From a virus: a DNA stretch of 64,000 nt. A model generated the notes under the pieces. It was not told where the DNA came from and did not search any database. It was given only the letters and a program-made list of their open reading frames with translations. This document shows, in pieces, positions 2,827 through 57,546 of this stretch; the first letter of the stretch is position 1; every line of letters begins with the position of its first letter. The DNA is taken from positions 34,605 through 98,604 of the IMG/VR virus record IMGVR_UViG_3300044641_006011; one strand, 5' to 3'. Made by a program: the position numbers and the translations under genes.

Positions 2827-3359
2827 TTTCAACTGGAACTGCATTTGCACAAAGCACTCCAGCACCAAGTAATACGAATATTGCAGGACCTTCAGCATCT
2901 GCAACTGGTAACGTAACAAACCAAGCAGTTCAGGTGTTACAAGGTCCATATGCATTGAACACTTATGGTGGTGGTGTAAGTTGCCAAGGAGCAACTTTTT
3001 CAGTATCTCCATTTTTAATGAGTAGTAATAATGCAAGTGATGACCCAGAAACATTTGCATCACGCAATGGAAACTGGGGCATTTCTGCTGGTCTGAATAT
3101 TCCATTAGATGGTGATCTAATGAGTTTGTGCAAAAAAAGAGCGGCAACTGAAATTGCTAGGCAGCAAAGTGAATATGAAAAAAGTCGTTTAGATTTTGAG
3201 CTTGTAAGAATTTTGAAGTGCTTAGAAGTAATTAAATCTGGTGGATTCTTTCATCCAGAAAGTCCTTATGGAAAAGTATGTGCTGATATAGTTGGACCAT
3301 CACCAAATGGATATTTAATGACTGGTGATGGCAAAGTTATTTCTAAAATTACAAAATAG
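2763..3359 (+). CDS. small Sec-exported protein of unknown function (3 of 3)
   Basis: A 198-residue frame with a hydrophobic FCLYAIISTGTAFA segment followed by QSTPAPS, which looks like a signal peptide with cleavage after AFA. The ATG used lies inside the preceding gene, and no ATG, GTG or TTG occurs nearer the hydrophobic core. The N-terminus is therefore unusually long and His-rich, unless a rare ATT/ATC codon initiates. The mature part has a beta-rich first half and a charged, probably helical second half with two cysteines. It meets a convergent endonuclease gene at its 3' end (11-base overlap). Function unknown. Confidence 0.65.
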   Translation: MDRSHHRNTIHHYINFCLYAIISTGTAFAQSTPAPSNTNIAGPSASATGNVTNQAVQVLQGPYALNTYGGGVSCQGATFSVSPFLMSSNNASDDPETFASRNGNWGISAGLNIPLDGDLMSLCKKRAATEIARQQSEYEKSRLDFELVRILKCLEVIKSGGFFHPESPYGKVCADIVGPSPNGYLMTGDGKVISKITK

Positions 3360-4014
3360 TTTCTACTTTTAATATATTTTTTGCTTTACCATAAAATTTT
3401 CCAGTTCTACTATCTGGTTTTGGCAAATATCCGTATTGCCTTTCAAATTCTCTAATACCCCAACATTCAATAATAGAACCATCAACAAAATAAACTTTTA
3501 TTTTTCTGCAATTTGTCAATGGTTTAATGTCTCTATTATGTTTTTTTCCAGTATTTGATAATGAAATTTTTTTCTTATGTTCTTCAGTGAAAGGTTTATC
3601 TCTTTTTAATCCCTTCATTTTTGATCCTGGATTATCTTCACCTTTCCATTTTCCCATTCTTTTACTTCTTTCACTTAATTTTTTTCGTCCTTCATCACTT
3701 ATCTTGCGATTTTTAGCAGCAATACTCATTCTTTCAATAGTTTCTTTTGATAATTTTCTTCCAGAACTTCCTTCGCCACCATCAGTAAGATTTCTCAAAA
3801 TTCCAGTTCCATTATTTTTTCTACCAAATATTGAAATCATATAAACTTCGTGTTTAATTGCATCTTCTTCAGAAATATTTTTCTTCAAAAATAAAATTCT
3901 ATCCTCTGTGGGAATTGGAACAATATGTTTTTTGTATATTCTATTTTCTTTTCCTTTGCCAATATAATAAGGTGTTCCATCTTCACGCAAATATGCATAA
4001 GTATAATATTTCAT
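3349..4014 (-). CDS. GIY-YIG homing endonuclease with NUMOD3 region
   Basis: A 221-residue protein. The N-terminus reads YYTYAYLREDGTPYYIGKGK, a GIY-YIG nuclease signature with the second triplet as YIG. A middle Lys/Arg/Ser/Gly-rich segment (~110-160, LSKETIERMSIAAKNRK and EEHKKKISLSNTGKKH) matches the NUMOD3 DNA-binding repeat. The C-terminus resembles the helix-turn-helix end of such enzymes. It is expected to cleave an intron- or endonuclease-free allele and promote its own spread. It is free-standing, on the strand opposite to its left neighbour, and has its own late-promoter box 27 bases upstream. Confidence 0.85.
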   Translation of the reverse strand: MKYYTYAYLREDGTPYYIGKGKENRIYKKHIVPIPTEDRILFLKKNISEEDAIKHEVYMISIFGRKNNGTGILRNLTDGGEGSSGRKLSKETIERMSIAAKNRKISDEGRKKLSERSKRMGKWKGEDNPGSKMKGLKRDKPFTEEHKKKISLSNTGKKHNRDIKPLTNCRKIKVYFVDGSIIECWGIREFERQYGYLPKPDSRTGKFYGKAKNILKVETIL

Positions 4015-9141: not shown

Positions 9142-9316
9142 TCTCTCCTAAGTACTCTAATGAATAGATATCATGATCTGAAATATTCGGATTCAACCAT
9201 TCACTAAACTCAGATTGAATCGCATGGGCATTTTCAATATCTTTTTCAGATAAAGTATGAATACGATCAATTGCCCAATCATGTGTATTCCGAAGAGTTT
9301 GTTCCAAAGTTGCCAT
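9119..9316 (-). CDS. small acidic protein, unknown
   Basis: A 65-residue soluble acidic protein (TLEQTLRNTHDWAIDRIHTL ... EYLGENDD). It overlaps the C39 peptidase start by 23 bases and the upstream GIY-YIG gene by 38 bases, as in the other coupled pairs here. No family recognised. Confidence 0.5.
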   Translation of the reverse strand: MATLEQTLRNTHDWAIDRIHTLSEKDIENAHAIQSEFSEWLNPNISDHDIYSLEYLGENDDLRSS

Positions 9317-9728
9317 AATCTTTTCGCATGTAGCGACCTAGAATATTGCTATTGTAGTACGCTGGTCCCCCATCGTCAAGAGACTCTTTCAACACATTAT
9401 TTAGGAAAAGTTGTTTTGTTTCTTCATAGTTACAGTCACCTTTTGTGTTATGAAGACTTAATATTTCTCTACTGAAGATCTCTTTTCCATACTTTTTAAT
9501 ATCTTCTTTTAATTCCGGACAAGAACCATAATACTTTTTCCAATCTGATTCTTGTTTTATTCTTCTCTTTTTTCCTGGAGGAGTTCTATAAGACCACAGA
9601 TACTTTCTTCCAATATATTTTTTACCGGTGGTCTTATTGGTAATCAAATAAACAAAACCAAAGTAATCCCCAATATTATCAGTCTCAAAAACTTGGCTTT
9701 TATACAACCAAGGATTCTCATAGCTCAT
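9279..9728 (-). CDS. GIY-YIG domain nuclease (Seg-like)
   Basis: A 149-residue protein. The N-terminal third has FGFVYLITNKTTGKKYIGRK, the GIY-YIG motif with YIGRK. YYGSCPELKEDIKKYGKE matches the region around the catalytic Arg/Glu of short GIY-YIG enzymes. No NUMOD repeats are visible, unlike the other two GIY-YIG genes in the window. It may be a resident phage nuclease rather than a mobile element. A GATAAATA box lies upstream in the divergent intergenic region. Confidence 0.75.
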   Translation of the reverse strand: MSYENPWLYKSQVFETDNIGDYFGFVYLITNKTTGKKYIGRKYLWSYRTPPGKKRRIKQESDWKKYYGSCPELKEDIKKYGKEIFSREILSLHNTKGDCNYEETKQLFLNNVLKESLDDGGPAYYNSNILGRYMRKDYGNFGTNSSEYT

Positions 9729-18721: not shown

Positions 18722-20071
18722 TTATCTGTATCTACGTCTTTTGTTTGCTGGATTGTGTGATGATCTTGCCCAGTCTGAATCAGACATAGATCCATATCTT
18801 GGATCATCTGACACTGAAGGTCTACGTCTTACTGGCCTTTGACTTCTTGATCTCCAATCACCTGCTTCTCTTGCTCTATTATTATTAGTGTCCTCATCAC
18901 CTTCATAAACTAATTCACCTTCCGGTTCATAAGACATGTTAAGACCTCTTGCCCTTAAAGCATTTTTTACAAGATTAATTTTTGTTTTCAAAGGTCTTGT
19001 ATCTTCTTTTTTCTGATCATCACATCCACATTCTGCGGATTCTTTTTGAACCTTTTCTGGAAGACCTTCATGTGATGTTGATGCAAAATCACGAAGTTGT
19101 TTTTCTGTCATGGAATCATACATTTCACGGGCAGCGCCTTTTAATTTTGAAGGGTCTGTTTTACCTCTTTTTGCAGAAAGAGCTGCACCAGCTGCTTGCT
19201 GTTGATTAACGCTTACTGACATTTCAAGAACAGTTTCTTCACTTACTTCTGGACCAACAGTAACACAACTTTTATTATCTTTTTTTATATCAATTATTCT
19301 ATCTTTTTTAGTTTTTCCCTCTACTTCAAAGAGATATTCAAATGCTTCTTTACGAACTTTTTTTTTACCACCCATTTGATCATTACCAGTGGCTCCAGCA
19401 ATAACATCACCACGAGTTACTCTGTTATATGGGGGATAATTATTGGCAAGATTTCCGTCATTCTTCAATCCTTTACCAGACTTAACTTTTGCAGTATTTT
19501 CACCTTTTGTCTTTTCTTCATCAGAATCCCTATCATATTCTGTCATTTCAACAGAAGAAATATTTGGATTTGCACGAAGTTCTGAAATTTTCGAACGAGT
19601 TGCATCGCGAGTATAGGTATTTCCAGTTTTCTTATCAGTTACTCTAATATGATACAGTCTTTCACCTTCCTTATTTACTTTAGTGTAAAGTTCTTGTAGA
19701 TATTCATTCTCAACGTCAACCTCTTCATTAGTAACACCTTCAACAAAAACTTTATTGAGAGCCACAAGTAATGATTCCTTTACAATATCGCTGACTTCAA
19801 ACTGTTCTGCAGATACTGTTGGTTGAGGCATAAGTTTTTTTATTGCAATTGCCTTAACTGCAGAAGGTGCAGGAGATGACTTAAGTTTTTGCTGATATTT
19901 TTGAGCAACTTGAGCAGGATTTAAATTGGTGTTTGGACCTAATTCCTTTTTAACTTTATATTTTACATCAGAAACAAGTTGTGATGCTGCCTTTTCAATA
20001 TCACTGTCGCCAGCGGCATGACCGCGATGAGGAGCAACTCTTTCATTTTCCTCAAAAAATTTCTTATTCAT
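18722..20071 (-). CDS. large putative internal virion protein with DUF3008-like segment
   Basis: A 449-residue, Lys/Glu-rich protein. Residues ~285-340 (QQQAAGAALSAKRGKTD, REMYDSMTEKQLRDFAST, GLPEKVQKE) match the small bacterial DUF3008 family, here embedded in a larger protein. A CGCDDQKK cysteine pair follows. NMSYEPEGELV is shared with the 494-residue gene at 10563-12047. The C-terminus is Arg-rich (RPVRRRPS; NKRRRYR). It lies between structural-type genes and the nucleotidyltransferase. A virion-internal role is inferred from the shared segment and composition. Confidence 0.5.
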   Translation of the reverse strand: MNKKFFEENERVAPHRGHAAGDSDIEKAASQLVSDVKYKVKKELGPNTNLNPAQVAQKYQQKLKSSPAPSAVKAIAIKKLMPQPTVSAEQFEVSDIVKESLLVALNKVFVEGVTNEEVDVENEYLQELYTKVNKEGERLYHIRVTDKKTGNTYTRDATRSKISELRANPNISSVEMTEYDRDSDEEKTKGENTAKVKSGKGLKNDGNLANNYPPYNRVTRGDVIAGATGNDQMGGKKKVRKEAFEYLFEVEGKTKKDRIIDIKKDNKSCVTVGPEVSEETVLEMSVSVNQQQAAGAALSAKRGKTDPSKLKGAAREMYDSMTEKQLRDFASTSHEGLPEKVQKESAECGCDDQKKEDTRPLKTKINLVKNALRARGLNMSYEPEGELVYEGDEDTNNNRAREAGDWRSRSQRPVRRRPSVSDDPRYGSMSDSDWARSSHNPANKRRRYR

Positions 20072-20087: not shown

Positions 20088-21392
20088 TTACTTACTTTTC
20101 CTATACTTATTTATGAAATTCAATCCAAAATTCTTTTGACCAAAAGCTAAATTTTCTTTATCAAGTTCTGAACCAGGTGTTTGTTGTGCGACGTATTTTA
20201 AATATCCAACTGTACCAACTAATGTATTTGGTTTTCCAGGAAGTCTCATTTTACTATTTACAGATTTTTCTTGATAAGATTCCTTTACATCTTTAATCCA
20301 AGACTTAAACATAATGTTATCTTCAGTTACACAAATAAGATAATTAGTTCCTCTGCGAATAATTTTTCCAACCAATCCCGTATTTAAATTTTCAACTAAT
20401 TCACCTACTTGATATATTCTTTCATGAATATAATTTTCTCTAAGATTTTTCCAGTCAAGTTTTGGTGCTATTTTCCAAACTTCAACAACCTCGTCTTGAA
20501 TTCCCATTGATTGACGAACAGTATTAAAAATATCACGAATTTCTTTTGGTCTCATTTCTGCAGGCATTCCAGAGCGAAAAGTTTTAAAGTCATTTTCTGC
20601 AGCAGCAAGTCTCATTCTTGAAGCAGAAAAGTCTTCAGCTTTATCAGAATCTGCGTCCTTTTCACCAATTGGCATTACTTCTATAGTATCAAATTGATAA
20701 AGATTACCATTATAACCATTAGTCAATTTTTCAAATTCTTTTACTCTATTAGGTCCACCAATAATTCTTACATTTGCATATCCGTCATTATGTGCTTTTT
20801 TAAGAACATCAAAAATAGTACTTGTATTTGAATCATTTACTATTCTCTCACTATGCTGTGGAAACATTTTTCTCATTATTGATACTTTTGTATCCACATC
20901 CAATGGATCTTTATTTTTGTCCTGAGTTCTTGAAGGAACAATTACATAATCACTACCCTCAGATTCTGCCGAACTAGCAGCAGTATCCATTAATTGAAGA
21001 TGACCAGCATGAGGAGGATTAAATCTTCCGTATGCAATGGTTAGAGTTCCTTTTGTTTTTTCTACAGGAAGATAATTTGTTGGAGTTGTCTCTTGAGGAA
21101 CTGTTGTTTGTTCTGGAGAGGATCCCTGAGTAGATTGTTGCTGAACTTGAGAGTTAGACGAATCGGTTGAAAAATAAGAAAGATTTTTTTCTTTTTCTGA
21201 TTGTGGAGAATCTTTCTCTCCTACTTTCTGGCGTTTGTTATAAAACTTTAATTCGCCATTTACCGTTTTTGCTACGAATTCTCCATTTTTATACCAACCA
21301 CCATGTTGGTCTGTATCCAAACCCATACGTTTAGCCTGTTGAATCGCTTTAGATTCTTGTGCTTCGGATAAAAATTGAAAAAATTTTTTCAT
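20088..21392 (-). CDS. nucleotidyltransferase with a T4-type capsid targeting sequence
   Basis: A 434-residue protein. It starts MKKFFQFLSE-AQ, close to the T4 internal-protein tag MKTYQEFIAE, with a prohead-protease type site (LSE/A). Residues ~115-265 are a cytidylyltransferase-like domain with GRFNPPHAGH (HxGH) at 122-131 and FSASRMR (ISxxR-like) at 255-261. A Gln/Ser/Thr linker separates tag and enzyme. The C-terminal part has a KOW/SH3-like strand set (QVGELVENLNTGLVGKII). The family transfers nucleotides to phosphate-bearing substrates. Substrate unknown. Packaging into the head is inference from the tag. Confidence 0.7.
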   Translation of the reverse strand: MKKFFQFLSEAQESKAIQQAKRMGLDTDQHGGWYKNGEFVAKTVNGELKFYNKRQKVGEKDSPQSEKEKNLSYFSTDSSNSQVQQQSTQGSSPEQTTVPQETTPTNYLPVEKTKGTLTIAYGRFNPPHAGHLQLMDTAASSAESEGSDYVIVPSRTQDKNKDPLDVDTKVSIMRKMFPQHSERIVNDSNTSTIFDVLKKAHNDGYANVRIIGGPNRVKEFEKLTNGYNGNLYQFDTIEVMPIGEKDADSDKAEDFSASRMRLAAAENDFKTFRSGMPAEMRPKEIRDIFNTVRQSMGIQDEVVEVWKIAPKLDWKNLRENYIHERIYQVGELVENLNTGLVGKIIRRGTNYLICVTEDNIMFKSWIKDVKESYQEKSVNSKMRLPGKPNTLVGTVGYLKYVAQQTPGSELDKENLAFGQKNFGLNFINKYRKSK

Positions 21393-23232: not shown

Positions 23233-23645
23233 CGATCATCAGCAGCACGGTTTTCGGAGAAATAAACATCAAACGCACCTTCAGGATAACGCTTGAGAAG
23301 TTTTTGTACATTACGAGCAACTACATCATCAATACTAACACCAAGTGCCATACATGCCTGAGCAACGTACCACATAATATCACCCAGTTCAATAATCAGG
23401 TGCTCGCGGTTGTCTTCGTTATAGGGTTTACCTTGGAAGATCATTTTCTTCACAATCTCCATAAACTCACCACCTTCAGCATTAATGCCAACAGAGGCAG
23501 TCAGAAGTCGTTCAATATTTGCACCCTTTTCATCCAGTTCAACCAAACGGTCAGAAAGAGCAAGAAAGTCTTTGGATGCGTCAGAAGTTACGGCATCCAC
23601 AAACTCAGCATACTTATCAAAATTAACGTGTTTAGCAGTTTCCAT
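23229..23645 (-). CDS. mazG: MazG-like nucleoside triphosphate pyrophosphohydrolase
   Basis: A 138-residue protein with the MazG helices: GINAEGGEFMEIVKKMIF (ExxE) and LIIELGDIMWYVAQAC (ExxD). This all-alpha family hydrolyses (d)NTPs or related nucleotides to monophosphates, using Mg bound by those acidic residues. Cyanophages often carry one. It is thought to tune host nucleotide pools, and a role in ppGpp turnover has been proposed. Its ATG overlaps the stop of the homing endonuclease gene (TAATG), a junction created by the endonuclease insertion. Confidence 0.9.
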   Translation of the reverse strand: METAKHVNFDKYAEFVDAVTSDASKDFLALSDRLVELDEKGANIERLLTASVGINAEGGEFMEIVKKMIFQGKPYNEDNREHLIIELGDIMWYVAQACMALGVSIDDVVARNVQKLLKRYPEGAFDVYFSENRAADDR

Positions 23646-23728
23646 TAAAATTTAAATCCTTCAAACGATTTTTTAGGTTTCTTGTCTTCATAATCATTAT
23701 ACTCATCATCCTGCCCACTGTCAAGTAT
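23645..23728 (-). repeat. direct repeat copy A: gp41-tail coding sequence at the end of the homing gene
   Basis: An 84-base copy encoding 27 residues plus stop, matching 24364-24447 in length and frame. Both end in FKF then TAATG. The endonuclease gene lies between the two copies. Confidence 0.8.
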
Positions 23729-24364
23729 CTTGATAGTCCATCCCTTATAAGTTTTTCTTTCTCCTCTCAAAATACGACTAAAATAACTTTGGGAAAAATT
23801 GTTATCTCTACAAAATTTTGCTAGATTTTTAATTACCAAAATAGTTCCATCTTCTTTTTTTAATTCGTAAGTATTTTTTGAATGTGATTGAGAAATTTTT
23901 TCTTTACAACTTTTAGTAAGTTTTCTACCAGTTCTATATGCGATCATTTTATCAACTGTTTCTCTTGATAAAACTTTTCCTTTATGTGCTTTACTTAACT
24001 TTTGCTTATGCTCCTCGCTCAAAGGTCTTCCAATTAATTTTTTTCTTCTTTTTTCTATAGAACTTTTAGATTGTTTAAATCCTCTTGCACATTTACCACC
24101 TTCTTTAATATTAAATCCATTATCTATAGAATCATAATATTTTATCCAATATTGTTCTCTTTCATCTAATAAATTTTTATCTTCTATTTCTTCAACTACA
24201 CCATAAACAAAATCATATTTACTATATTTTTGAATTTCCCTGCTAATTTTAGTTTCATTTATAGTTCTAAAATGACGCAAAACTCTTCTCTGCATTTTTT
24301 CAATAGTTTGCCCTATGTATTTTTTACCAGTAGATAAACTATGAATACAGTAAATAATTGCCAT
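23645..24364 (-). CDS. GIY-YIG homing endonuclease carrying a copy of the gp41 C-terminal tail
   Basis: A 239-residue protein. The N-terminus MAIIYCIHSLSTGKKYIGQT is the GIY-YIG core. NUMOD3-like repeats (SSIEKRRKKLIGRPLSEEHK; SKAHKGKVLSRETVDKMI) and a helix-turn-helix (LAKFCRDNNFSQSYFSRILR) follow. The last 27 residues (ILDSG ... KKSFEGFKF) align without gaps to the last 27 residues of the upstream gp41 (15 identities). The gene is joined by TAATG to gp41 on one side and mazG on the other. It therefore appears to be a homing insertion that duplicated the 3' end of gp41. No late box is seen upstream, unlike the HNH genes. Confidence 0.9.
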   Translation of the reverse strand: MAIIYCIHSLSTGKKYIGQTIEKMQRRVLRHFRTINETKISREIQKYSKYDFVYGVVEEIEDKNLLDEREQYWIKYYDSIDNGFNIKEGGKCARGFKQSKSSIEKRRKKLIGRPLSEEHKQKLSKAHKGKVLSRETVDKMIAYRTGRKLTKSCKEKISQSHSKNTYELKKEDGTILVIKNLAKFCRDNNFSQSYFSRILRGERKTYKGWTIKILDSGQDDEYNDYEDKKPKKSFEGFKF

Positions 24365-30976: not shown

Positions 30977-31591
30977 CTATATAGACAATTCTTTCACCTC
31001 TTTACAAGTCCAACCTTTATGAGATTTTCTTTGTCCCTTTATAATTTTATTCATAGTTCTATGATCTAATCCATACTCTTCACAGGTCTTTCTCATACTT
31101 TTAGTCATAACAATTAATCCAGAAGAATGTTTTAACTCATATTCATATCTTTTATAATTATCATTTATATTAAATTTTTCTTTTTTATTGTAATAGTTTA
31201 TTTTATTATACTTTTTATTATTTTTACAATTATACTTCCTAACAGCACCACCTTTCCAGTTCCAGTGAAGTTCTCCTCTCATACTTTCACTTCTCTTTAC
31301 CCTTGCGTTTTCATACAAATATGAATTACAATATCTTCCTTTTGATTTCATATTGATATGGGCACACAACATCTTCTGCGTGCTTCTATGTCTTATTCCG
31401 TATCTTTTCTCACATATTTTTTGAAGAAGAAGGTGAGCGATGTAATGTTCTCTCCCTGTGAGAATTACAACTCTATCATTTTTACCAAAAATACTTTTAG
31501 GAAATATGTGATGCTTTTCAACATAACCTTCAGGAGGAGTTCTATTTTCTGCTTTCCTGATAAGGTTACAATAAACCTTTAGGTAATTCAT
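30977..31591 (-). CDS. HNH homing endonuclease
   Basis: A 204-residue protein from MNYLKVYCNLIRKAENR. This start was preferred because GGAG lies 5 bases upstream and the earlier ATG at 31612 would fall at the promoter. EGYVEKHHIFPKSIFG and ILTGREHYIAHLLL form the HNH core (HH...N/H...H). The C-terminus is a helix-turn-helix (MRKTCEEYGLDHRTMNKI) ending in a HKGWT block, also seen in the GIY-YIG gene at 23645. It lies between hsp20 and the gp43 operon. Its leader contains a late box within an inverted repeat. Confidence 0.85.
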   Translation of the reverse strand: MNYLKVYCNLIRKAENRTPPEGYVEKHHIFPKSIFGKNDRVVILTGREHYIAHLLLQKICEKRYGIRHRSTQKMLCAHINMKSKGRYCNSYLYENARVKRSESMRGELHWNWKGGAVRKYNCKNNKKYNKINYYNKKEKFNINDNYKRYEYELKHSSGLIVMTKSMRKTCEEYGLDHRTMNKIIKGQRKSHKGWTCKEVKELSI

Positions 31592-31600
31592 TCTACTCCA

Positions 31601-31671
31601 ATTTGACCGCATATGTATTTATAATAAAAAGGAGGGATTTTCACCCTCCTCCTGACAGATTGCGGTCAAAT
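31601..31671 (-). promoter_or_regulatory. inverted repeat enclosing a late promoter, upstream of HNH gene
   Basis: Perfect 11-bp arms ATTTGACCGCA (31661-31671 on the minus strand) and TGCGGTCAAAT (31601-31611) enclose a terminator hairpin and TATAAATA (31616-31623). The 3' arm is immediately followed by the Shine-Dalgarno TTGGAG and ATG 31591. Read-through RNA can form the stem, while RNA started at the late box lacks its 5' arm. Confidence 0.65.
31630..31650 (-). terminator. intrinsic terminator after hsp20
   Basis: Stem AGGAGGG / CCCTCCT with a 7-base loop and T5 on the minus strand, leading directly into ATTATAAATA. Confidence 0.8.
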
Positions 31672-34811: not shown

Positions 34812-35752
34812 TTGAATTCACACTCCACCATAATTTCAACTAATGCTGCTAAGAGATTAATTTCTTGGTCAGCCACGAACGCACATTGGTATTGATACTT
34901 AGCAATAACAAGAACGGCAGCAGGGATAGATTGGGGAAGTAGGCAATCATAAAGGGCGTCATAAACCCTGCGAAGAAGACTAGAAGCATCGTTGTCCAAG
35001 TTGGAGACCACCCACTTTCGGACTTCTGAAAAGTTTTTGTCTTTGAGATTTTTAATGAGTTCATTTACAGAAATGTCGGAGAAAGATGCAAGAATGCCAG
35101 AATCAATTTTTCCTCCAGTAGAGTACCTTTGGCATTCATTGAGAACTCGCCTAAAATCAGGAAAATGCTTGGATATCAGTTCAACAACAACCTTTTCATC
35201 GTACTCAATTTTCTCATGATCCAAGATTTGGAGAACTCTTTTGAAGAACGATCCTGCAAGTTGTTGCTTTTGCTTTCCCTTGATTGTGAAGTCAATGACT
35301 GCACATCGGGAATGGAGAGGTTCAATAATTTTGTTCTTGTAGTTGCAGGTGAAGATGAATCGGCAGTTGCTATAAAATGCCTCAATATTTGCCCGTAGTA
35401 AGAGTTGAACATCTGAGGTTGTGTTGTCACTCTCATCCACAATAATGACCTTGTGCCTACCATTTCCTTGAAGTGATACGGTCGAAGCAAAGTTCTTTGC
35501 TTGGTTCCTGACAGTATCCAAGAAACGCCCTTCGTCGGATCCGTTGATGACATAGTAATCTGCTCCAAGTTGTTCGCATAATGCTTTCGCAATCGTAGTT
35601 TTTCCAATACCAGGAGGACCAGAAAGAAGAAGGTTAGGAATTTCTCCCTTTTCAATAAAATCCAAAAAGGTTTTTTTAGTGTCCTCGGGAAGAATACAAT
35701 CCTCTACCTTTTTTGGTCTCCACTTTTCCACCCACAAAAAATTGTCACTCAT
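34808..35752 (-). CDS. 44: clamp loader large subunit gp44
   Basis: A 314-residue AAA+ protein from MSDNFLWVEKWRPKKVEDC. This start overlaps the HNH stop (TAATG); the in-frame extension upstream is HNH coding sequence. It has the Walker A LLLSGPPGIGKTTIAKAL, the Walker B VIIVDESDN and the SRC motif EPLHSRCAVIDF. It forms the ATPase ring that opens and loads clamp gp45. The N-terminal WRPK signature is typical of the RFC/gp44 family. Confidence 0.95.
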   Translation of the reverse strand: MSDNFLWVEKWRPKKVEDCILPEDTKKTFLDFIEKGEIPNLLLSGPPGIGKTTIAKALCEQLGADYYVINGSDEGRFLDTVRNQAKNFASTVSLQGNGRHKVIIVDESDNTTSDVQLLLRANIEAFYSNCRFIFTCNYKNKIIEPLHSRCAVIDFTIKGKQKQQLAGSFFKRVLQILDHEKIEYDEKVVVELISKHFPDFRRVLNECQRYSTGGKIDSGILASFSDISVNELIKNLKDKNFSEVRKWVVSNLDNDASSLLRRVYDALYDCLLPQSIPAAVLVIAKYQYQCAFVADQEINLLAALVEIMVECEFK

Positions 35753-36201
35753 CAATAAACTCCATTCAATACATTCCAAATACTTCGTTGGTTTTTACCC
35801 ATAATATCAGCAATCTTTCTCTGAGACAACCCTTGCTCCGAAAGATTTTTTATTTCTTGTTTTACTTCATCCTCCATTTGAGGTCTTCCTTTTTTTGGTT
35901 CTGGTCTTCCTAAATGAGACCTTCTTGTGTTTTCTGAACGAGGCAACCATCTCAAATTTTCAACTTTATTATTGGTTTTGTTCTCATCAATATGGTCTAT
36001 ACACCAATCTTTACCTTTTGGTCTTGGTTCTCCCCAACATTCTACCACAAGTTGATGAAGTCGTTTTTCACGAACTACAACATATCCATCTCTTTTATCA
36101 ACTCTCCCAATAGGTTTTACATTTAGAATTTTACCACAAGCACTTACATAAATGTCTGGATAAGTTTTTGATTGTTTGTAGGTAATTCCGTCGAGTTCCA
36201 T
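35752..36201 (-). CDS. HNH homing endonuclease with AP2/HTH-type tail
   Basis: A 149-residue protein with a NUMOD4-like start (MELDGITYKQSKTYPDIYVS) and an HNH core (DWCIDHIDENKTNNKVENLRW). The C-terminal helix-turn-helix is LSEQGLSQRKIADIMGKNQR. It sits directly upstream of gp44, whose ATG overlaps its stop. A late box 22 bases upstream of its ATG lies in an imperfect inverted repeat. Confidence 0.88.
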   Translation of the reverse strand: MELDGITYKQSKTYPDIYVSACGKILNVKPIGRVDKRDGYVVVREKRLHQLVVECWGEPRPKGKDWCIDHIDENKTNNKVENLRWLPRSENTRRSHLGRPEPKKGRPQMEDEVKQEIKNLSEQGLSQRKIADIMGKNQRSIWNVLNGVY

Positions 36202-43053: not shown

Positions 43054-43686
43054 TCAACGCTCACCACGCATATGTCCTTCAGATTCTCTAGCCTTTTGTA
43101 ATGCCTGTCCAGTATTTTGTTTTCCAGGAATATGCTTAAGAGCAGAACCAGATTTTCTTTCGTTTTCTTTATTAAACTTTTTTTGGAGATATTCAGTTCT
43201 TTTTGTTTCTTCAAGAATATCGTTTCTCCAATCTTCACTCATATTCGCCATAATAGCAAGAGCTGCCTCATTTGTATCAGCATAACCTTCAGCAACTAGG
43301 TGCTCAAGAATCGTGTCAAAAATATCAAAGTCTTCCTTCATTTTCTTTTCTTCTGGTCTTTTACCAAAAGTTTTATGAACCATTTTATCTAACTTGTCGT
43401 GAAACTCGCCTTCCTTTTCTTTACTTGCACCTTCTTCATCCTTTTCACCTTTTTCTTCCTCCTTATCAAGTTTTAACTCGTCAGGAGCATACTTCATTGT
43501 TTTACCATCTTCACGCTTGACGGTATAATATTTACCCTTACCTTCTGGATCGACCTTTACGATTTCACCTTCCATTCCACTTGCCTTACAGACAACTTCA
43601 TCACCAACCTTGAAGTGGGATTCGAAAATATTGGTATAGATGGATGCATAAGACTCCATCAAATCTATAATTTTTCCTGCTTCCAT
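43054..43686 (-). CDS. putative prohead-core/internal protein with KOW-like domain
   Basis: A 210-residue protein. The leader MEAGKIIDLME-SYASIY has 11 residues before a prohead-protease type site (LME/S) and the [AS]Y..IY motif shared with neighbours. Residues ~24-72 (HFKVGDEVVCKASGMEGEIV ... YYTVKREDG) resemble a KOW/SH3 barrel. A Lys/Glu-rich linker follows. Residues ~122-160 (ILEHLVAEGYADTNEAA, MANMSEDWRNDILEE) are the shared EGYAD/MSEEW module. A virion-internal location is inferred from the leader and cluster. Confidence 0.6.
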   Translation of the reverse strand: MEAGKIIDLMESYASIYTNIFESHFKVGDEVVCKASGMEGEIVKVDPEGKGKYYTVKREDGKTMKYAPDELKLDKEEEKGEKDEEGASKEKEGEFHDKLDKMVHKTFGKRPEEKKMKEDFDIFDTILEHLVAEGYADTNEAALAIMANMSEDWRNDILEETKRTEYLQKKFNKENERKSGSALKHIPGKQNTGQALQKARESEGHMRGER

Positions 43687-43709: not shown

Positions 43710-44777
43710 TTATTTAATTTTTGTATTATATTTTTTATTGTTCCAGGTAAATTCTTTTTCTCCTGAAGATCTAGCTTGTTTAAAAGCTTTATCAAAAGAT
43801 TGTGCTTTATTCAATCCCTGGTCTGGATTTTTTGGACCTTGTTGTGGTTTATAATCACCTCTTTTCAAAGCAGACTTAAGTGTTGAATCTCCAGTATTAT
43901 ATGCCTGTAATCCAGCAGCTGCAGCACCCAATCTTCCAGGAATTGAAATACCTGGATTTTTGGGTCTTAATGAAGTATTAGATTGAACAGTTCTCATTAA
44001 ATTATATTGACCTGTTTGATTTGGTTTGGGTGGTGTACCAATTTTAAATGTTTGTTTAGGAGGAGTTTGCTTTGAAGGTCCTTGTGTAGCAATTTTAGTC
44101 AAATTAGCAGGTCCACTAGGTGCTTTTTGAGGGATTTTTTCAATACCAGTCATCATTCTAAACATCTTTGCAGCATTGCCAATATTTCTTCCAACATCCT
44201 GCAAAGCATTTTCAACAATCAATTCTTCAAGAACACTAGTTCTCCAAGTTTCACCCATATTGCAGATAATTACTGAGGCGCTGTTTTCATTATCAGCATA
44301 TCCTTCAGAAATCAAATATTCTACAAGACAGTTAAAGATATCATTTTCAACATCTTCAGATTTAACTGTTCCCCCTTTGTTGAATCCAGGAATTTTCCTC
44401 AATGGTGCTGTCGCTTTATCATACATCTGTCCACCTTTATTACTACCAACTAAACCACCTATTACCCCCCCACCAGGAATTTCAGTTTTCTGTCCCTGTC
44501 TCCTACCAATCTCACTACCAACAGTTTGAGCTGCAGATCTTCCAATTCTATCTAATGTTGATAAAGGATTTTCAGTTAACTCTTCACCATCTTCAAACTG
44601 ATAATGTGCATTTTGCAATGTTGGTTTTTTAGGTTCAACAACTTTACCACCACCATGAGATTTAATTAAAGGGGTTAAAACATCCTTGGCAGTTTTTCCA
44701 GGAGGAATAGGAATTCCAATCTGCTCGTAAATACTTTGGTATGCTTCCAATATATTTTTATATTCTTTTGAATTCAT
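43710..44777 (-). CDS. putative prohead-core/internal protein
   Basis: A 355-residue protein. The leader MNSKEYKNILE-AYQSIYEQ has the same 11-residue spacing and an ILE/A site. LQNAHYQFEDGEE at ~54-66 is shared with the 494-residue gene. A Gly-rich segment (~88-137) precedes the EGYAD/MSEEW module (~146-186). The C-terminal part is basic and low-complexity (Pro/Gln/Lys). A late box lies 26 bases upstream. It lies in a cluster of four similarly tagged genes. Confidence 0.6.
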   Translation of the reverse strand: MNSKEYKNILEAYQSIYEQIGIPIPPGKTAKDVLTPLIKSHGGGKVVEPKKPTLQNAHYQFEDGEELTENPLSTLDRIGRSAAQTVGSEIGRRQGQKTEIPGGGVIGGLVGSNKGGQMYDKATAPLRKIPGFNKGGTVKSEDVENDIFNCLVEYLISEGYADNENSASVIICNMGETWRTSVLEELIVENALQDVGRNIGNAAKMFRMMTGIEKIPQKAPSGPANLTKIATQGPSKQTPPKQTFKIGTPPKPNQTGQYNLMRTVQSNTSLRPKNPGISIPGRLGAAAAGLQAYNTGDSTLKSALKRGDYKPQQGPKNPDQGLNKAQSFDKAFKQARSSGEKEFTWNNKKYNTKIK

Positions 44778-44859: not shown

Positions 44860-45858
44860 TTACAGACCGTATTTTTTCTTCATTTCTGCTCTTGCTTCAT
44901 CTTCACGTCTGTTACGCTCTCCAAATAAATCATCTCTACGACTCTTTAGACGACCTCTCATTCTTTTAGTTTTTTCTTCTCTTTCAACTGCAGAAAGTCG
45001 GGATAAACCACGACTCCTACCTTGATGTTGATTGTCAAGAACATTTCCTGCCTTATAAGTTGTCTTTACACCTCTTTCAATTTGCTTATTTGATTGATCC
45101 TTTGCTGCCTCAACAATATCTTCTCTCCATTCTTCACTCATATTCACCATAATTGCTTCTGCTGCTTCTGTTGTTTCAGCATACCCTTCATCAATCAGAT
45201 ATCCTATAATATACTCATCATTTAGTCCTTTTCTTGCAACATGCCCAGCAAGTCTGGCAGTTCCCGATGCCCCTTTACCAACTTCAAGAGCAACTCCACC
45301 AACTTTTCCTGCTGCTTTTTTGATAGTTTTTCCAGTTTCTTTTGCAACATTCATAGCAGCATTATGTCTTGCAATTCCTCTATTAATTGCACCAGCAACA
45401 CGATCTAATACACCTGGTTTTTTAGGTTGTTTTTTTGCTGCTGCAGCAACTGCAGATTGTCTTTGAAGTGATGCCTTCATTCCAGATGGTTTTGTTGCAG
45501 ATGATTTTTCTTCCGCATCTCTTCTTGCTGCCTTTTGAGCACGAAGTCTTTCAAGAGATTTGCCAGTTGGTTTACCAGACTTGAACTTTTGTCCTTTTGC
45601 AGTCACAGGTTCAATTCTAGCACCACCTGCTCTTGCTTCGGTTAAAACATACTCTTCAGCAATATCTGAAACAAAGTTTGCAAATTCTTCTTCACCAAGT
45701 TCTTCAATAAGAATATCAACTCCATCCTCATTTAAACCCATTTCATAAAAATATTGAGCAGCAATTTCTACTTCTTCCGAAAATTCTTCTTGTACTTCTT
45801 CTCGGACATATATGTTTTGATATGCCTCAAACAAAGACTGCATCTGTTGTGCTTTCAT
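44860..45858 (-). CDS. putative prohead-core/internal protein, histone-like middle
   Basis: A 332-residue protein. The leader MKAQQMQSLFE-AYQNIYVRE has an LFE/A site at residue 11. Acidic helices (~20-75) are followed by a long Ala/Lys/Arg region (~100-212) resembling histone H1-like tails. The EGYAD/MSEEW module is at ~214-250, and the basic tail ends EARAEMKKKYGL. Architecture parallels the 494-residue gene at 10563-12047. A late box lies 26 bases upstream. Confidence 0.6.
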   Translation of the reverse strand: MKAQQMQSLFEAYQNIYVREEVQEEFSEEVEIAAQYFYEMGLNEDGVDILIEELGEEEFANFVSDIAEEYVLTEARAGGARIEPVTAKGQKFKSGKPTGKSLERLRAQKAARRDAEEKSSATKPSGMKASLQRQSAVAAAAKKQPKKPGVLDRVAGAINRGIARHNAAMNVAKETGKTIKKAAGKVGGVALEVGKGASGTARLAGHVARKGLNDEYIIGYLIDEGYAETTEAAEAIMVNMSEEWREDIVEAAKDQSNKQIERGVKTTYKAGNVLDNQHQGRSRGLSRLSAVEREEKTKRMRGRLKSRRDDLFGERNRREDEARAEMKKKYGL

Positions 45859-45898: not shown

Positions 45899-46117
45899 TC
45901 AGTTCTCATCCGCATGAGGATTTGCCTTTCTATCCGTACTAACTGTTTTTTTATATTTTTCAACCGATGTAGATAATCTATCAAAATCTGATCTGGCTTG
46001 AGACGCCGTTTTTTGTGCTTCAGCATCTGTAGCAGCACTTCTTTTTTTCAATTTTTCCAACCTATCTTTAAATTCTTGAGATTTACTCTCAGTTTGAAAT
46101 TCTTGAAACGTTTTCAT
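45899..46117 (-). CDS. small internal-protein-like gene with T4-type capsid targeting sequence
   Basis: A 72-residue protein starting MKTFQEFQTE-SK. This matches the T4 internal-protein tag MKTYQEFIAE at 7 of 10 positions, and the T4 tag is cut after its final Glu. The remainder is a charged, Lys/Ser/Asp-rich helix (KDRLEKLKKRSAATDAEAQK). A late box lies 16 bases before the ATG. In T4 such proteins are packaged in the head and injected with DNA. By analogy, this could be an injected protein. Confidence 0.65.
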   Translation of the reverse strand: MKTFQEFQTESKSQEFKDRLEKLKKRSAATDAEAQKTASQARSDFDRLSTSVEKYKKTVSTDRKANPHADEN

Positions 46118-53739: not shown

Positions 53740-53964
53740 TTAATATGGAGCGTTGCTAACTATTCTTCCAAGAAACTTTTTAGTTTTATCAGTAGAAGAT
53801 GAAGATTTTTTGTTATTTTGTCCAATTGGTGGTGGACCAGAGGCAAATTTTTGACCAGGTTTTATTATAGTGCTTTGAAGATTTTTTTGCACTTTTGGAT
53901 CACTTAATTTATTCACTAAGTCTGGATGAAATGCCTGCTCACAAAATTGCTTAAAATTTTTCAT
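53740..53964 (-). CDS. small protein with capsid-targeting-like N-terminus
   Basis: A 74-residue protein starting MKNFKQFCEQA, close to the MKTFQEF/MKTYQEF tag, with Glu at position 9 instead of 10. The rest is Lys/Pro/Ser-rich (LNKLSDPKVQKNL-like helix, then GPPPIGQNNKKSSSS). Its ATG overlaps the stop of the 52-residue gene upstream (ATGA). It is probably expressed with gp23. Confidence 0.55.
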   Translation of the reverse strand: MKNFKQFCEQAFHPDLVNKLSDPKVQKNLQSTIIKPGQKFASGPPPIGQNNKKSSSSTDKTKKFLGRIVSNAPY

Positions 53965-54119
53965 TCTTTTACAATTAAGTTAAACCATTCTTCACTCATA
54001 CCGTTAATAATGATATCTGCAGATTCTTTACTATCTGCATATCCTTCGCTAATAAGATGTTCAACTACTTTTTCGTAACTTTTATAAATTTCTTGAGACT
54101 GTTTGGGAGTTGGTTTCAT
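53961..54119 (-). CDS. stand-alone EGYAD/MSEEW module protein
   Basis: A 52-residue frame, MKPTPKQSQEIYKSYEKVV through HLISEGYADSKESAD and NGMSEEWFNLIVKE. It consists almost only of the helical module found in three large putative core proteins (43054-45858). It lies directly downstream of gp23 with its terminator between. The module as a free protein suggests that it is a real domain, possibly binding a common capsid or core partner. Confidence 0.65.
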   Translation of the reverse strand: MKPTPKQSQEIYKSYEKVVEHLISEGYADSKESADIIINGMSEEWFNLIVKE

Positions 54120-54194: not shown

Positions 54195-55601
54195 TCACAT
54201 GAGGTTGTTAACACGTACTCTTCTGTAGTAGCGGTTAGCGTTTGCCCTGAGGCGACCAAGACCAGGTGTGGTTCCTTCTGCAAATGGGTTTGCAACGATA
54301 CCGTATCTGGTCTTAAATCCGATTTTAGGCTGGAAGTTGTTCTCACCAACGGCACGAACCATTTGGAGGGGAACATATGGGCAATAGAACAGACCTGCAT
54401 CATAAGGGGAAGAACCCTTATAACCAACAACATAGTACTGGTTAGCAGAAACGTTTGCCGAATAAGGATCGATATAAACACGATACTTACCTTGGAGAAC
54501 ACCAGCAAAGGTGTTACCAGTGTCATCAACGTTAAGATTTGCGTTGAGTGCGGGGGTGTAGTCAAGTACACCAGCCATGGTCAGGGCGGAAGCAACGTCT
54601 GCAGAGCAGAGGATCATGTTGCCCTTTCCTCTACGAGTTCTTTGTGCGATAGCGTTAGCATCGCGCTCGATTTGGAAGATAAGACCCTTGAACTTCTCAA
54701 CTGACCAACGACCGTTGGAGTCAACGTCGAGGTCGAAAGTACCAGCAGAAGCAACGTTTGCTTGAGCACCTGATTCAGCAATCTTGTAGATAGTTCTGAT
54801 AACTTCGCGGTTGATTTCAGCAAGAATCTCAGTTGAGAGAATGTTTGCTAATTCCGCTTCAGCATTCAGACCGTGGATTGCCTTGAGGTCTTGAGCAAGC
54901 TCAAGTGAGTACTCAGCTTTCAGAGCGCGTGACTTTGCAGTTACGGTGACCTTCTCGATAGAGAATGCCATTTGGTTGAACTCGTTACCGTCATAACCGA
55001 GTCCTTCAGCATTCTCAGTGTCCATACCTTGACCTACACTGTAGGTGTTGTATGCCTGACTACCTTCTGGGTTCAGAAGACCTGGATTTGTTCCTGCGGA
55101 TGCTGTAGTACCGAAACCTACGGAAGCACCGTCAGAACCGGAAACATATCCACTACCAAGAACGGCATTGCGGTCGTCATCTTGACCAGACCATGCAGTA
55201 TCTGCTTCATCGAACAGAGCTTCTGATCCACCTTGTGTAGCGTACTTAGAACGCATTGCAAAGATAAGACCAGTAGGACCATTCATTGGTTGAACGCCAG
55301 CGAGGTCATATGCGACCAGGTTTGGCATTGAACGACGAATGAGGCTGATTAGAACAGGATCGAAACCAGCAACAGGTGAAGATGCATCAGCACTAAAACC
55401 TGCGGTTGCGCCAGATGAACCAGTATTAATGTTTGGACCTTCGGAAAGGAATGCACGCTCTTCGCGTAATTCTCTTTCTTGGTTTTCTAGCAGGATAGCA
55501 GTTACCGCTCTACGATGCGAATCTCTGATTGGATCCATTCCTTGATAATCAAGGATTGGTGACCACTTCTCCTGCAATTGTTCTGCATTGAACATTTGCA
55601 T
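54195..55601 (-). CDS. 23: major capsid protein gp23
   Basis: A 468-residue protein. EKWSPILDYQGMDPIRDSHR and RAVTAILLENQERELREE form the N-terminal propeptide. FLSE-GPN at residues 51-54 is a likely gp21 cleavage site. PVAGFDPVLISLIRRSMPNL, LELAQDLKAIHGLNAEAELA and GNMILCSADVASAL are typical of T4-type gp23. It forms the hexamers of the head. AGAGGT precedes the ATG. It lies downstream of gp22 in the standard order. Confidence 0.97.
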   Translation of the reverse strand: MQMFNAEQLQEKWSPILDYQGMDPIRDSHRRAVTAILLENQERELREERAFLSEGPNINTGSSGATAGFSADASSPVAGFDPVLISLIRRSMPNLVAYDLAGVQPMNGPTGLIFAMRSKYATQGGSEALFDEADTAWSGQDDDRNAVLGSGYVSGSDGASVGFGTTASAGTNPGLLNPEGSQAYNTYSVGQGMDTENAEGLGYDGNEFNQMAFSIEKVTVTAKSRALKAEYSLELAQDLKAIHGLNAEAELANILSTEILAEINREVIRTIYKIAESGAQANVASAGTFDLDVDSNGRWSVEKFKGLIFQIERDANAIAQRTRRGKGNMILCSADVASALTMAGVLDYTPALNANLNVDDTGNTFAGVLQGKYRVYIDPYSANVSANQYYVVGYKGSSPYDAGLFYCPYVPLQMVRAVGENNFQPKIGFKTRYGIVANPFAEGTTPGLGRLRANANRYYRRVRVNNLM

Positions 55602-55648: not shown

Positions 55649-56854
55649 TCACTTTTTAGATACTCTACTGAGAGTTTGAAGATATGCCTCCATGATAGGA
55701 GATACTGATTCGCTCAGATTTTCTCCGTAGGAAACATCCTCAGATAAGTTCTCAGAAAAGTCTTTTTGAGTACCAGTTGATCTGGTTGGGAAATACGATT
55801 CCCTCAGAGTTACCAGTTTCTCACGATAGTTTTCTTCACTATCAAACTCAACATTTTCGGCAAGAGAAGCGAGTTTGTCCTTCTGAGAAAGTGCAAGACC
55901 CTCAGTAACATCGGCAAAGATTACATCAGCAACCGACTCTGCTAATCTTCTATTCAGAGCAACATTTCTTTGAATTTGCTCGTTGAGTTTTTCTTCCATT
56001 TCATCAAGTTTATCTACCATACTCTCGATTACATCATATCTATCTTCAGGGATTGTTACATAATGATCTTCAAAAAGACCTCTCATTCCTTGGAGGAATG
56101 ATTCGGTCATTTCAGTCTTAAGACCGTGCTCAATTGCGAGTGCATTTTCAGCAATCCACTCGTCAGCAACATACTCAAGATATGCATCAACTCTTTCGAC
56201 TAATTCTGATCTAATTGATGCAACTTCTTCAATTAAGGCGCTTTCATACTGAGATTGGAGATCTTCTTTAATCTCAAAAACCTTTGAACGAATAGCGGCT
56301 TCAAAAATAGTACGTGCTTTCTCTTGGAATTCCTCAGAAAGCTCTTCACCTTCTAGAAGAGCATTGACATCTTCTTCGATGTCAAACTCTTCCTTCATTT
56401 CATCTTCATTTTCTTTTGCTTCGTGACCTTTACCTTCTTTCTTTTCTTTTTCTTTCTTTTCCTTGCCCTTTGGTTCGCCAGTCTCTCCTTCTTCGTCGGC
56501 AGCTTCAGCAACTACTTCTTCTTCCTCGTCAAGTTCTTCCTCGTCAACGAGATCTTCATCTTCGTCTTCGGTTTCTTCCTTAACAGCACCTTTGGCAAGA
56601 TGTTGCATAGGATCAGCAGCTTTAGCACCCTTATTGACAACATTTCTTACCGAAGCAAGAGTTGTGGGTTCTTTAAGTTTTGCAGAATTATCGTCTGGGC
56701 GATAATTTTCTGGGGTTGGACCGCCAAGATCTTCCCAATTGCCAGCAGTTTGTCCAGGTGCAATACCTGTCGTTAGCTTCTGCATTGGTTCTGCAGTCTT
56801 GGCTCCTTTGGTTACTACGTTTTCCATTTCTTGTAAATTTCTACCAACGGACAT
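55649..56854 (-). CDS. 22: prohead scaffold gp22 with N-terminal repeats
   Basis: A 401-residue acidic coiled-coil protein. Residues 13-30 (VVTKGAKTAEPMQKLTTG) and 72-89 (VVNKGAKAADPMQHLAKG) are tandem repeats not expected in T4 gp22. A Glu/Lys-rich linker (~95-155) precedes the helical scaffold body (EELSEEFQEKARTIFEAAI). The C-terminal IMEAYLQTL resembles the [IL]xE-AY tag of the core-protein family. The scaffold assembles inside the prohead and is degraded by gp21. Confidence 0.9.
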   Translation of the reverse strand: MSVGRNLQEMENVVTKGAKTAEPMQKLTTGIAPGQTAGNWEDLGGPTPENYRPDDNSAKLKEPTTLASVRNVVNKGAKAADPMQHLAKGAVKEETEDEDEDLVDEEELDEEEEVVAEAADEEGETGEPKGKEKKEKEKKEGKGHEAKENEDEMKEEFDIEEDVNALLEGEELSEEFQEKARTIFEAAIRSKVFEIKEDLQSQYESALIEEVASIRSELVERVDAYLEYVADEWIAENALAIEHGLKTEMTESFLQGMRGLFEDHYVTIPEDRYDVIESMVDKLDEMEEKLNEQIQRNVALNRRLAESVADVIFADVTEGLALSQKDKLASLAENVEFDSEENYREKLVTLRESYFPTRSTGTQKDFSENLSEDVSYGENLSESVSPIMEAYLQTLSRVSKK

Positions 56855-56895: not shown

Positions 56896-57546
56896 TTATA
56901 GATTTGAAAGAAATTCATTGAATAAATTCAACTTATGCTCTTCCAATCTTTTTTGATCAACTAATGTATTAATTCTGCGTTTTGTAGACTCTGCAAGTTT
57001 TTCACGAAGAATTCCACCTTCCCAAACCCACTCTTTACCTTCCATAATTCCCGAAACAAATGCATCGGGTGCAGAAGGATCGGCAACGATATCGGCAGCA
57101 GTTGCAAGCATGAAATCTTCACCAACAATTTTATGACCTTCATTGGTCATTTTTAATGAACCAACACCACGAGAAGAAACACCAAGAGTTACACCTTCAC
57201 TAATAAGAGATTTTGCAATCTTACCCATTGGAGTTTCTAAGAGTTGTGCCTTTCCTCTAAAATTATTTCCTTCACATGTAAGGGAAACAATTTTATGAGA
57301 AACACGATCTAGATTCACAGTTGGACCATCTGGGTGTCCAAGTTCTCCAAGAGCACGACCTTTATTAATAAAAGATTCTGTATATCTTGTTACTTCGCGG
57401 GAGAGTGTTTCCATAGGATACATTCTACCGTTTCTGTTAGTAATGTCTCCTTGGAGAAAAATTCCCTCAATATAACATTTTTTACAGGAACCTTTTCCCT
57501 CAGTAATAAATTTAACTTCTGATACTTCTTCTGTGATTAGTTTCAT
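56896..57546 (-). CDS. 21: prohead maturation protease gp21
   Basis: A 216-residue protein. GDITNRNGRMYPMETLSREV, RALGELGHPDGPTVNLD (His71) and LGVSSRGVGSL (Ser124/125) carry the catalytic residues of the T4 gp21 family. VKFITE-GKG near residue 16 looks like a self-cleavage site. It cleaves head and core proteins after (I/L)xE, the sequence found in the tagged proteins elsewhere in this window. Confidence 0.95.
   Translation of the reverse strand: MKLITEEVSEVKFITEGKGSCKKCYIEGIFLQGDITNRNGRMYPMETLSREVTRYTESFINKGRALGELGHPDGPTVNLDRVSHKIVSLTCEGNNFRGKAQLLETPMGKIAKSLISEGVTLGVSSRGVGSLKMTNEGHKIVGEDFMLATAADIVADPSAPDAFVSGIMEGKEWVWEGGILREKLAESTKRRINTLVDQKRLEEHKLNLFNEFLSNL

Follow-up and report, generated by a model that had tools for sequence, protein, structure and literature searches.

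A nucleotidyltransferase of T4-like cyanophages carries a T4-type capsid-targeting tag and is probably delivered with the viral DNA

We propose that T4-like cyanophages load a nucleotidyltransferase into their heads by means of a T4-type N-terminal targeting tag, cut the tag with the prohead protease gp21 and eject the enzyme together with their DNA, a proposal to which we give a probability of roughly 0.78. Packaging into the capsid through the tag is well supported, and the enzyme is probably delivered into the cell along with the viral DNA; what we infer is that the enzyme sits inside the capsid, is cut behind Glu10, is ejected and is catalytically active, and that all of this extends to the uncultured phage studied here. 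During head assembly, the tag MKKFFQFLSE would bind the prohead core, mainly by residues 4 and 7, in the way of the capsid-targeting sequence (CTS) of T4 internal proteins, so that the enzyme would be enclosed in the prohead ahead of DNA packaging. Cleavage by gp21 behind Glu10 would then free the enzyme, which would remain in the head at low copy, exit with the DNA and so bring an adenylyl (or cytidylyl) transferase of NMNAT/PPAT type into the host cytoplasm ahead of any phage gene expression.

The gene lies in a window of 64 kb (the whole stretch of DNA that was analyzed), which belongs to the 98.6-kb virus record of a cyanophage-type T4-like phage. Homologs of gp17 to gp23, UvsW, UvsX, gp41, gp43, gp44 and NrdA/B are recognizable in the window's list of open reading frames (ORFs), together with the gene of interest:

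20088..21392, minus strand: tagged nucleotidyltransferase gene, T4-GC190 ortholog; 434 aa, ATG start, single intact ORF

By translation, the N-terminus of the product is MKKFFQFLSEAQESK, and a longer stretch of its opening residues reads MKKFFQFLSEAQESKAIQQAKRMGLDTDQHGGWYKNGEFVAKT. The closest relative, from S-SRM01, is 60.6% identical over the full length, P-SSM2_194 (P-SSM2/P-SSM5) is 56.7% identical, and a homology search matched 559 phage records in total. The P-SSM2 ortholog is annotated as T4-GC 190, the cyanophage "cytidyltransferase," and the window protein falls into the T4-GC190 cluster by full-length homology and by synteny (mazG, the nucleotidyltransferase, then primase and nrdA/B). 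The gene downstream of it (18722-20071, minus strand) encodes a DUF3008 protein (PF11450, E=2e-24), the orthologs of which begin with M..KIFEE, possibly another short prohead-protease site. The 64 kb also hold several genes of the homing-endonuclease type (3349-4014, 9279-9728, 23645-24364, 30977-31612 and 35752-36201), with NUMOD3, SegE GIY-YIG, GIY-YIG, I-HmuI-like and HNH_3 types among them.

As in the T4 internal-protein system, the protease, core protein and major capsid protein are all encoded in the phage's own genome and within the window (a slash marks a predicted cut here and below):

56896..57546, minus strand: gp21 prohead protease, Peptidase_S77 (PF03420, E=3.9e-36), the enzyme predicted to cut the tag
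55649..56854, minus strand: gp22 scaffold, the expected prohead-core partner of the tag (PF25623, E=7e-80)
54195..55601, minus strand: gp23 major capsid protein, recognized by sequence, with a predicted gp21 site RAFLSE/GPNI at residue 54

A sequence-only reading of this DNA had already placed gp21 at this locus, and the profile match bears it out. By analogy with T4 gp23, the FLSE/G motif near residue 54 of the window gp23 is a predicted gp21 site, and we take this position to be equivalent to the one at which gp21 cuts T4 gp23.

That reading had also proposed a T4-type tag at the N-terminus of the nucleotidyltransferase, giving no strand; the tag is real and lies on the minus strand. MKKFFQFLSE shares only 4 of 10 residues with the T4 tag MKTYQEFIAE (M1, K2, F7 and E10), with conservative substitutions at positions 4 (F/Y), 6 (Q/E) and 8 (L/I), and this identity taken alone would be a weak indication, but the functional positions are conserved in two ortholog clades. 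In a set of 45 non-redundant orthologs (<92% identity), M1, K2, F4 and F7 are invariant, position 8 is L, I, V or F in 44, and Glu10 is kept in 42, while positions 3, 5 and 9 are free to vary. The first ortholog search used six seeds, one of which was MKKFFQFL, and the search was therefore repeated with no N-terminal seed to guard against seed bias. With interior seeds, a second clade (S-SM1 type, ~38-41% identity to the window protein) displayed MK[KSN]F[SN]AFL[TNSIV]EA in 80/80 loci. In T4, amber mutagenesis of the IPIII tag assigned targeting mainly to residues 4 and 7 and processing to residues 8 and 10, and gp21 cleaves after L/I-X-E (reviewed in PMC9026906). The conserved ortholog positions 4, 7, 8 and 10 coincide with these functional positions. 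An [LIVF]-x-E is present in the first 17 residues of all 81 window-type sequences, and in the five that lack Glu10 the motif stands at 9 or 13 instead, which argues for selection on the cut site rather than on a fixed residue. Like the CTS of T4 IPI, IPII and IPIII, the tag is an N-terminal peptide of about ten residues with bulky residues at functional positions 4 and 7, L/I-x-E at 8-10 and Glu at the cut site.

Across 12 phage records, the codon pattern MK.[FY]..F[LIM].E gave 14 matches against 0 for the reversed pattern. A relaxed pattern without K2 was noisy, with control patterns about equally frequent, and only the strict form was therefore used. Chance resemblance to the T4 tag was rejected on the strength of conservation confined to functional positions, the 14 versus 0 reversed matches and the S-CREM2 association described below. 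Two further ORFs in the window carry partial tags:

45899..46117, minus strand: 72-aa ORF with partial tag MKTFQEFQTE/SKSQ, candidate second cargo protein
53740..53964, minus strand: 74-aa ORF just after gp23 with partial tag MKNFKQFCEQ/AFHP, candidate cargo protein

Since neither has homologs in the phage collection, both are weak candidates only. Elsewhere in the window, three adjacent proteins (43054-43686, 43710-44777 and 44860-45858, minus strand) share an N-terminus, M(8)[LI]xE/[AS]Y..IY, in which residue 11 may be a site for the prohead protease, and their module LIxEGYAxTxEAAxxIMxNMSEEWR recurs in a 52-aa ORF beside gp23 (53961-54119). The trio may represent another class of proteins directed to the head.

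Ortholog conservation and an AlphaFold2 model split the 434-aa protein into five parts, listed here with the two motifs of the nucleotidyltransferase domain:

21363..21392, minus strand: capsid-targeting-sequence-like tag, residues 1-10, MKKFFQFLSE; drawn from ortholog conservation and T4 positions, with gp21 predicted to cut at the bond of residues 10 and 11
21225..21347, minus strand: conserved module, residues ~16-56, AxxQAxRxGLxxDGHGGWYxxGEFVAKTxxGxLxFYNKRQ, which other virion proteins carry too
21057..21224, minus strand: variable Q/P/E-rich linker, residues 57-112, mostly pLDDT <50
20493..21056, minus strand: nucleotidyltransferase domain, residues ~113-300, NMNAT/PPAT fold, from Pfam, AlphaFold2 and Foldseek
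21000..21029, minus strand: active-site motif GRFNPPHAGH, residues 122-131, invariant apart from [HT] at 128
20610..20627, minus strand: motif SASRMR, residues 256-261, ISxTxxR type, invariant in orthologs
20268..20444, minus strand: C-terminal beta module, residues ~317-375, from conservation and the AlphaFold2 model

The flexible linker described earlier as following the tag does exist (57-112), but the module at 16-56, which intervenes, had been overlooked; AlphaFold2 predicts a short helix and three strands for its ~40 residues. The C-terminal module is a gene of its own (T4-GC534) in Syn1 and S-PM2 and stands alone behind a tag in one locus (L391). A 185-aa tagged ORF (L337) consists of the tag, the conserved module and the C-terminal module without the nucleotidyltransferase domain, and the parts therefore shuffle independently.

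Direct orthologs of the window protein, under the names cytidyltransferase or NMNAT, have been reported in the virions of four cyanophages. Mass spectrometry detected T4-GC190 (S-SM1_190) in S-SM1 (PMC3037559), ORF91, named NMNAT, in S-SCSM1 (PMC9602691) and ORF154 in S-CREM2 (PMC10665884), and in S-SZBM1 virions S-SZBM1_140 was found at an emPAI of 0.26, next to 0.30 for the prohead protease gp21 and 0.19 for a core protein (PMC9146016). The N-termini of these orthologs are MKKFSAFLNE/AERS in S-SM1, MKNFSSFLTE/ADEK in S-CREM2 and MRFRQFIIE/AVAA in S-SZBM1, and alignment of the S-SCSM1 protein with a consensus-like query begins at residue 1, the first 52 query residues showing 64% identity. 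None of the papers on the four orthologs linked the protein to a targeting sequence, and they leave room for contamination; their proteomes report presence in particles, with the inside and outside of the head not distinguished and no N-terminal peptide listed (PMC3037559, PMC9602691, PMC9146016 and PMC10665884).

S-CREM2, with 219 annotated ORFs and 52 virion-detected proteins (PMC10665884, Table 3), allowed the association between tag and virion to be measured. The pattern ^M[KRQN].[FYL]..F[LIVMF].E, fixed after these sequences had been seen, matched five of the 219 ORFs (gp6, gp13, gp14, gp136 and gp154), and every one of them was detected in virions (Fisher P=6.5e-4); shuffled N-termini averaged 0.02 matches. 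Since the broader pattern was fixed with the sequences in view, the stricter MK.[FY]..F[IL].E, for which only T4 and the window served as sources, is the fairer test; it matched gp6, gp14 and gp154, again all virion proteins (~0.013, hypergeometric, computed by hand). No S-CREM2 ORF outside the virion set has the tag. gp6 is a SAM lyase (PF23780), gp14 a kinase with a GTG start and gp154 the cytidyltransferase ortholog. The APH-like kinase gp14 (L099:10579-12846) starts with the tag plus module, as the window enzyme does, and contains the module twice. Another S-CREM2 virion protein, the "Cas9" gp12 (L099:7704-10313), has a tag-like LRFASFMAE/AA at residues 17-25 followed by the module of the window protein, and its name is doubtful because a Pfam scan of gp12 gave no match. 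A kinase of S-CRM01 has likewise been reported in virions, as PMC10665884 relays from Dreher 2011; its N-terminus is MISFDQFLSE, and its neighbors, the cytidyltransferase included, are also tagged.

These data bear on whether the virion detections could be an artifact of co-purification, in which a lysate-abundant protein sticks to virions and the N-terminal helix serves oligomerization or the binding of a neighboring gene's product. The authors of PMC10665884 and PMC9602691 themselves allow for co-purification, but we consider this explanation very improbable. The protein was detected independently in four phages, and the S-CREM2 ORFs with the tag are all virion proteins, with none outside the virion, whereas contamination would not single out tagged proteins. 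In addition, the same tag is common to unrelated proteins, its positions agree with T4 mutagenesis (PMC9026906), and its cut-site motif shifts but is never lost.

Not every phage follows the same rule. The S-SM1 paper also notes that the counterpart in S-PM2 had not been found in virions of that phage (PMC3037559); in S-PM2 the transferase domain is fused behind DUF6267 and untagged, and the phage has no tagged ORF at all. This contrast (no tag, not in virions) fits the tag model but comes from a single phage and a single older experiment. In S-CBWM1, which is not T4-like, the NMNAT reported in virions has no tag and gives no support to the tag model, and S-SZBM1_191 is a counter-example, being tagged yet missing from that phage's 30-protein virion list. 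Some clades, such as S-PM2 and Syn1, have the transferase without any tag, which speaks against tag dependence everywhere and indicates that packaging is not needed for transferase function in all phages. The enzyme could then be a packaged passenger: the tag would load it into the prohead core, but it would act in the infected cell or in assembly and be merely trapped, to be ejected without an early role. Its ability to work without packaging in the tagless phages and its low virion copy, similar to remnants of scaffold and protease (S-SZBM1 emPAI of 0.26 versus 0.30 and 0.19), would agree with such a passenger. However, T4 internal proteins and Alt, which have such tags, are ejected (PMC9026906), the co-tagged SAM lyase and kinase of S-CREM2 are of types expected to act early in the host, and the functional tag positions are kept in about 160 sequences, which argues that packaging itself is selected. 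We regard a mere passenger as unlikely.

As to what the enzyme might do, the cytidylyltransferase-like domain with GRFNPPHAGH and SASRMR that had been recognized from the sequence is confirmed by PF01467 (CTP_transf_like), which matches residues 119-213 (E=1.7e-9, 38.4 bits versus a cut-off of 21). With this score above gathering and with its [HT]xGH and ISxTxxR-type motifs, the protein belongs to the HIGH nucleotidyltransferase superfamily, and it shares these motifs and the fold with NadD, NadM, NadR, NMNAT and PPAT. Foldseek matched the AlphaFold2 model best to NMN/NaMN adenylyltransferases and to PPAT (E 4e-5 to 6e-4), and sequence and profile searches found no PDB match. Unlike the NMN/NaMN adenylyltransferases, the protein has only 12-19% identity to solved structures, added phage modules and relatives without NadV, and none of the NMNAT equivalog families scored above its NCBIfam cut-off (TIGR01526, 24.5 bits versus 341; TIGR00482, 19 versus 112). 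Since NMN/NaMN adenylyltransferases are the families and structures that it matches best, NMN (yielding NAD+) or a related compound is our leading guess for the substrate of what would be an NMNAT-like adenylyltransferase, at slightly less than even odds. A survey of phages found that every NadM phage also had NadV (PMC9503650), and NadV/NAPRTase was found in 0/7 records here, six complete relatives among them, with positive controls detected. The six complete relatives without NadV weaken a role in NAD+ salvage, and NadV-dependent salvage was rejected, which in turn weakens the NMNAT role.

The main functional rival, which we consider less likely than not, is that the transferase and DUF6267 form a two-enzyme nucleotidyl-transfer pair acting on nucleic-acid ends or a related adenylate instead of NAD+, which would leave the packaging unchanged. 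Besides the fusion in S-PM2, DUF6267 adjoins the transferase in S-SM1, S-RIM8, Syn1, S-CRM01, S-SZBM1 and 8/46 window-type loci, the two are both tagged and side by side in L352, the invariant KxDG and EGxV of DUF6267 resemble ligase motifs I and IV, and the relatives without NadV favor such a pair as well. On the other hand, DUF6267 was not found in this phage's 98.6-kb record, which is possibly a fragment, and the AlphaFold2 model of DUF6267 (pLDDT 83) had no significant PDB match, NAD+-dependent ligase adenylation domains standing near the top only at E>1. With suggestive motifs and non-significant profile and structure searches, DUF6267 as a ligase is a lead. Examples of DUF6267 (PF19782) are found at L083:1759-3534, L097:295-1269 and L352:947-2098, it immediately precedes the transferase in L006, L046, L056, L061, L062 and L072, and it also keeps invariant KLVDR-like residues that resemble nucleotidyl-ligase motifs.

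The tag extends well beyond this enzyme. Two codon-pattern scans of IMG/VR returned at least 255 tagged ORFs, from a sample that is not representative, and a Shine-Dalgarno-like word preceded 43% of them versus 13% of random positions. Small internal-protein-like genes of 170-kb, T4-sized genomes are among the tagged ORFs listed. Tagged enzymes among the matches listed include two proteins with PF03496 ADP-ribosyltransferase exoenzyme domains, a Zeta_toxin/AAA kinase and an S-AdoMet lyase, and further tagged types among them are a GNAT acetyltransferase, a glucosaminidase, a phage lysozyme, DUF6267 and more CTP_transf_like proteins. These tagged enzymes suggest a general repertoire of packaged effectors. 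A common tagged family of ~105 aa, MKSFKQFISESVNIxGDFNGNLYIN... (L106, L112, L118:4312-4629 and many IMG/VR loci, e.g., L248 and L254), is encoded close to the terminase gene and to one annotated as "virion structural protein" and was not detected in the S-SZBM1 virion list. In Caulobacter phage Cr30 (L110, start at record position 28335, minus strand), the tag MKTFKQFFNE opens a 106-aa protein weakly similar to PARP/KptA, a candidate packaged ADP-ribosyltransferase-like protein outside the cyanophages. Beyond our main claim, we lean towards the view that marine T4-like phages use the tag, often joined to a shared DGHGxW-type module, as a general cassette for loading cargo, with the window enzyme as one member. 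The cargo of such a modular and largely unrecognized cassette would comprise nucleotidyltransferases, kinases, SAM lyases, ADP-ribosyltransferases, HNH and zeta-like enzymes, acetyltransferases and DUF6267.

Compared to T4, the window protein combines familiar and unfamiliar features. Cleavage and ejection have been demonstrated for the T4 internal proteins and are predicted for the window protein, which, unlike those small proteins (IPI counters restriction), is a five-part enzyme. The suggestion that it is a packaged enzyme like T4 Alt holds in part. Packaging by a T4-type tag stands on the conserved positions, the virion-detected orthologs in four cyanophages and the S-CREM2 association, and the proposed carriage of an enzyme in the head resembles Alt, as do the PF03496 domains of tagged ORFs in other phages. 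The chemistry does not carry over, since Alt is an ADP-ribosyltransferase and the window enzyme has an adenylyl/cytidylyltransferase fold and no sequence relation to it.

The presence of the orthologs in virions was already published, and the link to a targeting tag appears to be new; no earlier link of this virion protein to a targeting sequence was found in open-licence PubMed Central papers. Within that literature, the mechanism of targeting also appears to be new, as does its reach to a whole group of enzymes with the tag. Several groups had seen this "cytidyltransferase/NMNAT" in cyanophage virions, undecided between cargo and contamination, and the tag offers a mechanism together with a cut site open to testing, and would account for the co-occurring kinase and SAM lyase. 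If the cassette view is true, the set of effectors that cyanophages inject would be readable straight from the genome. Such a sequence rule for time-zero enzymes would allow candidate lists to be drawn from metagenomes, and it would open the study of early changes in host metabolism and defense caused by abundant ocean phages.
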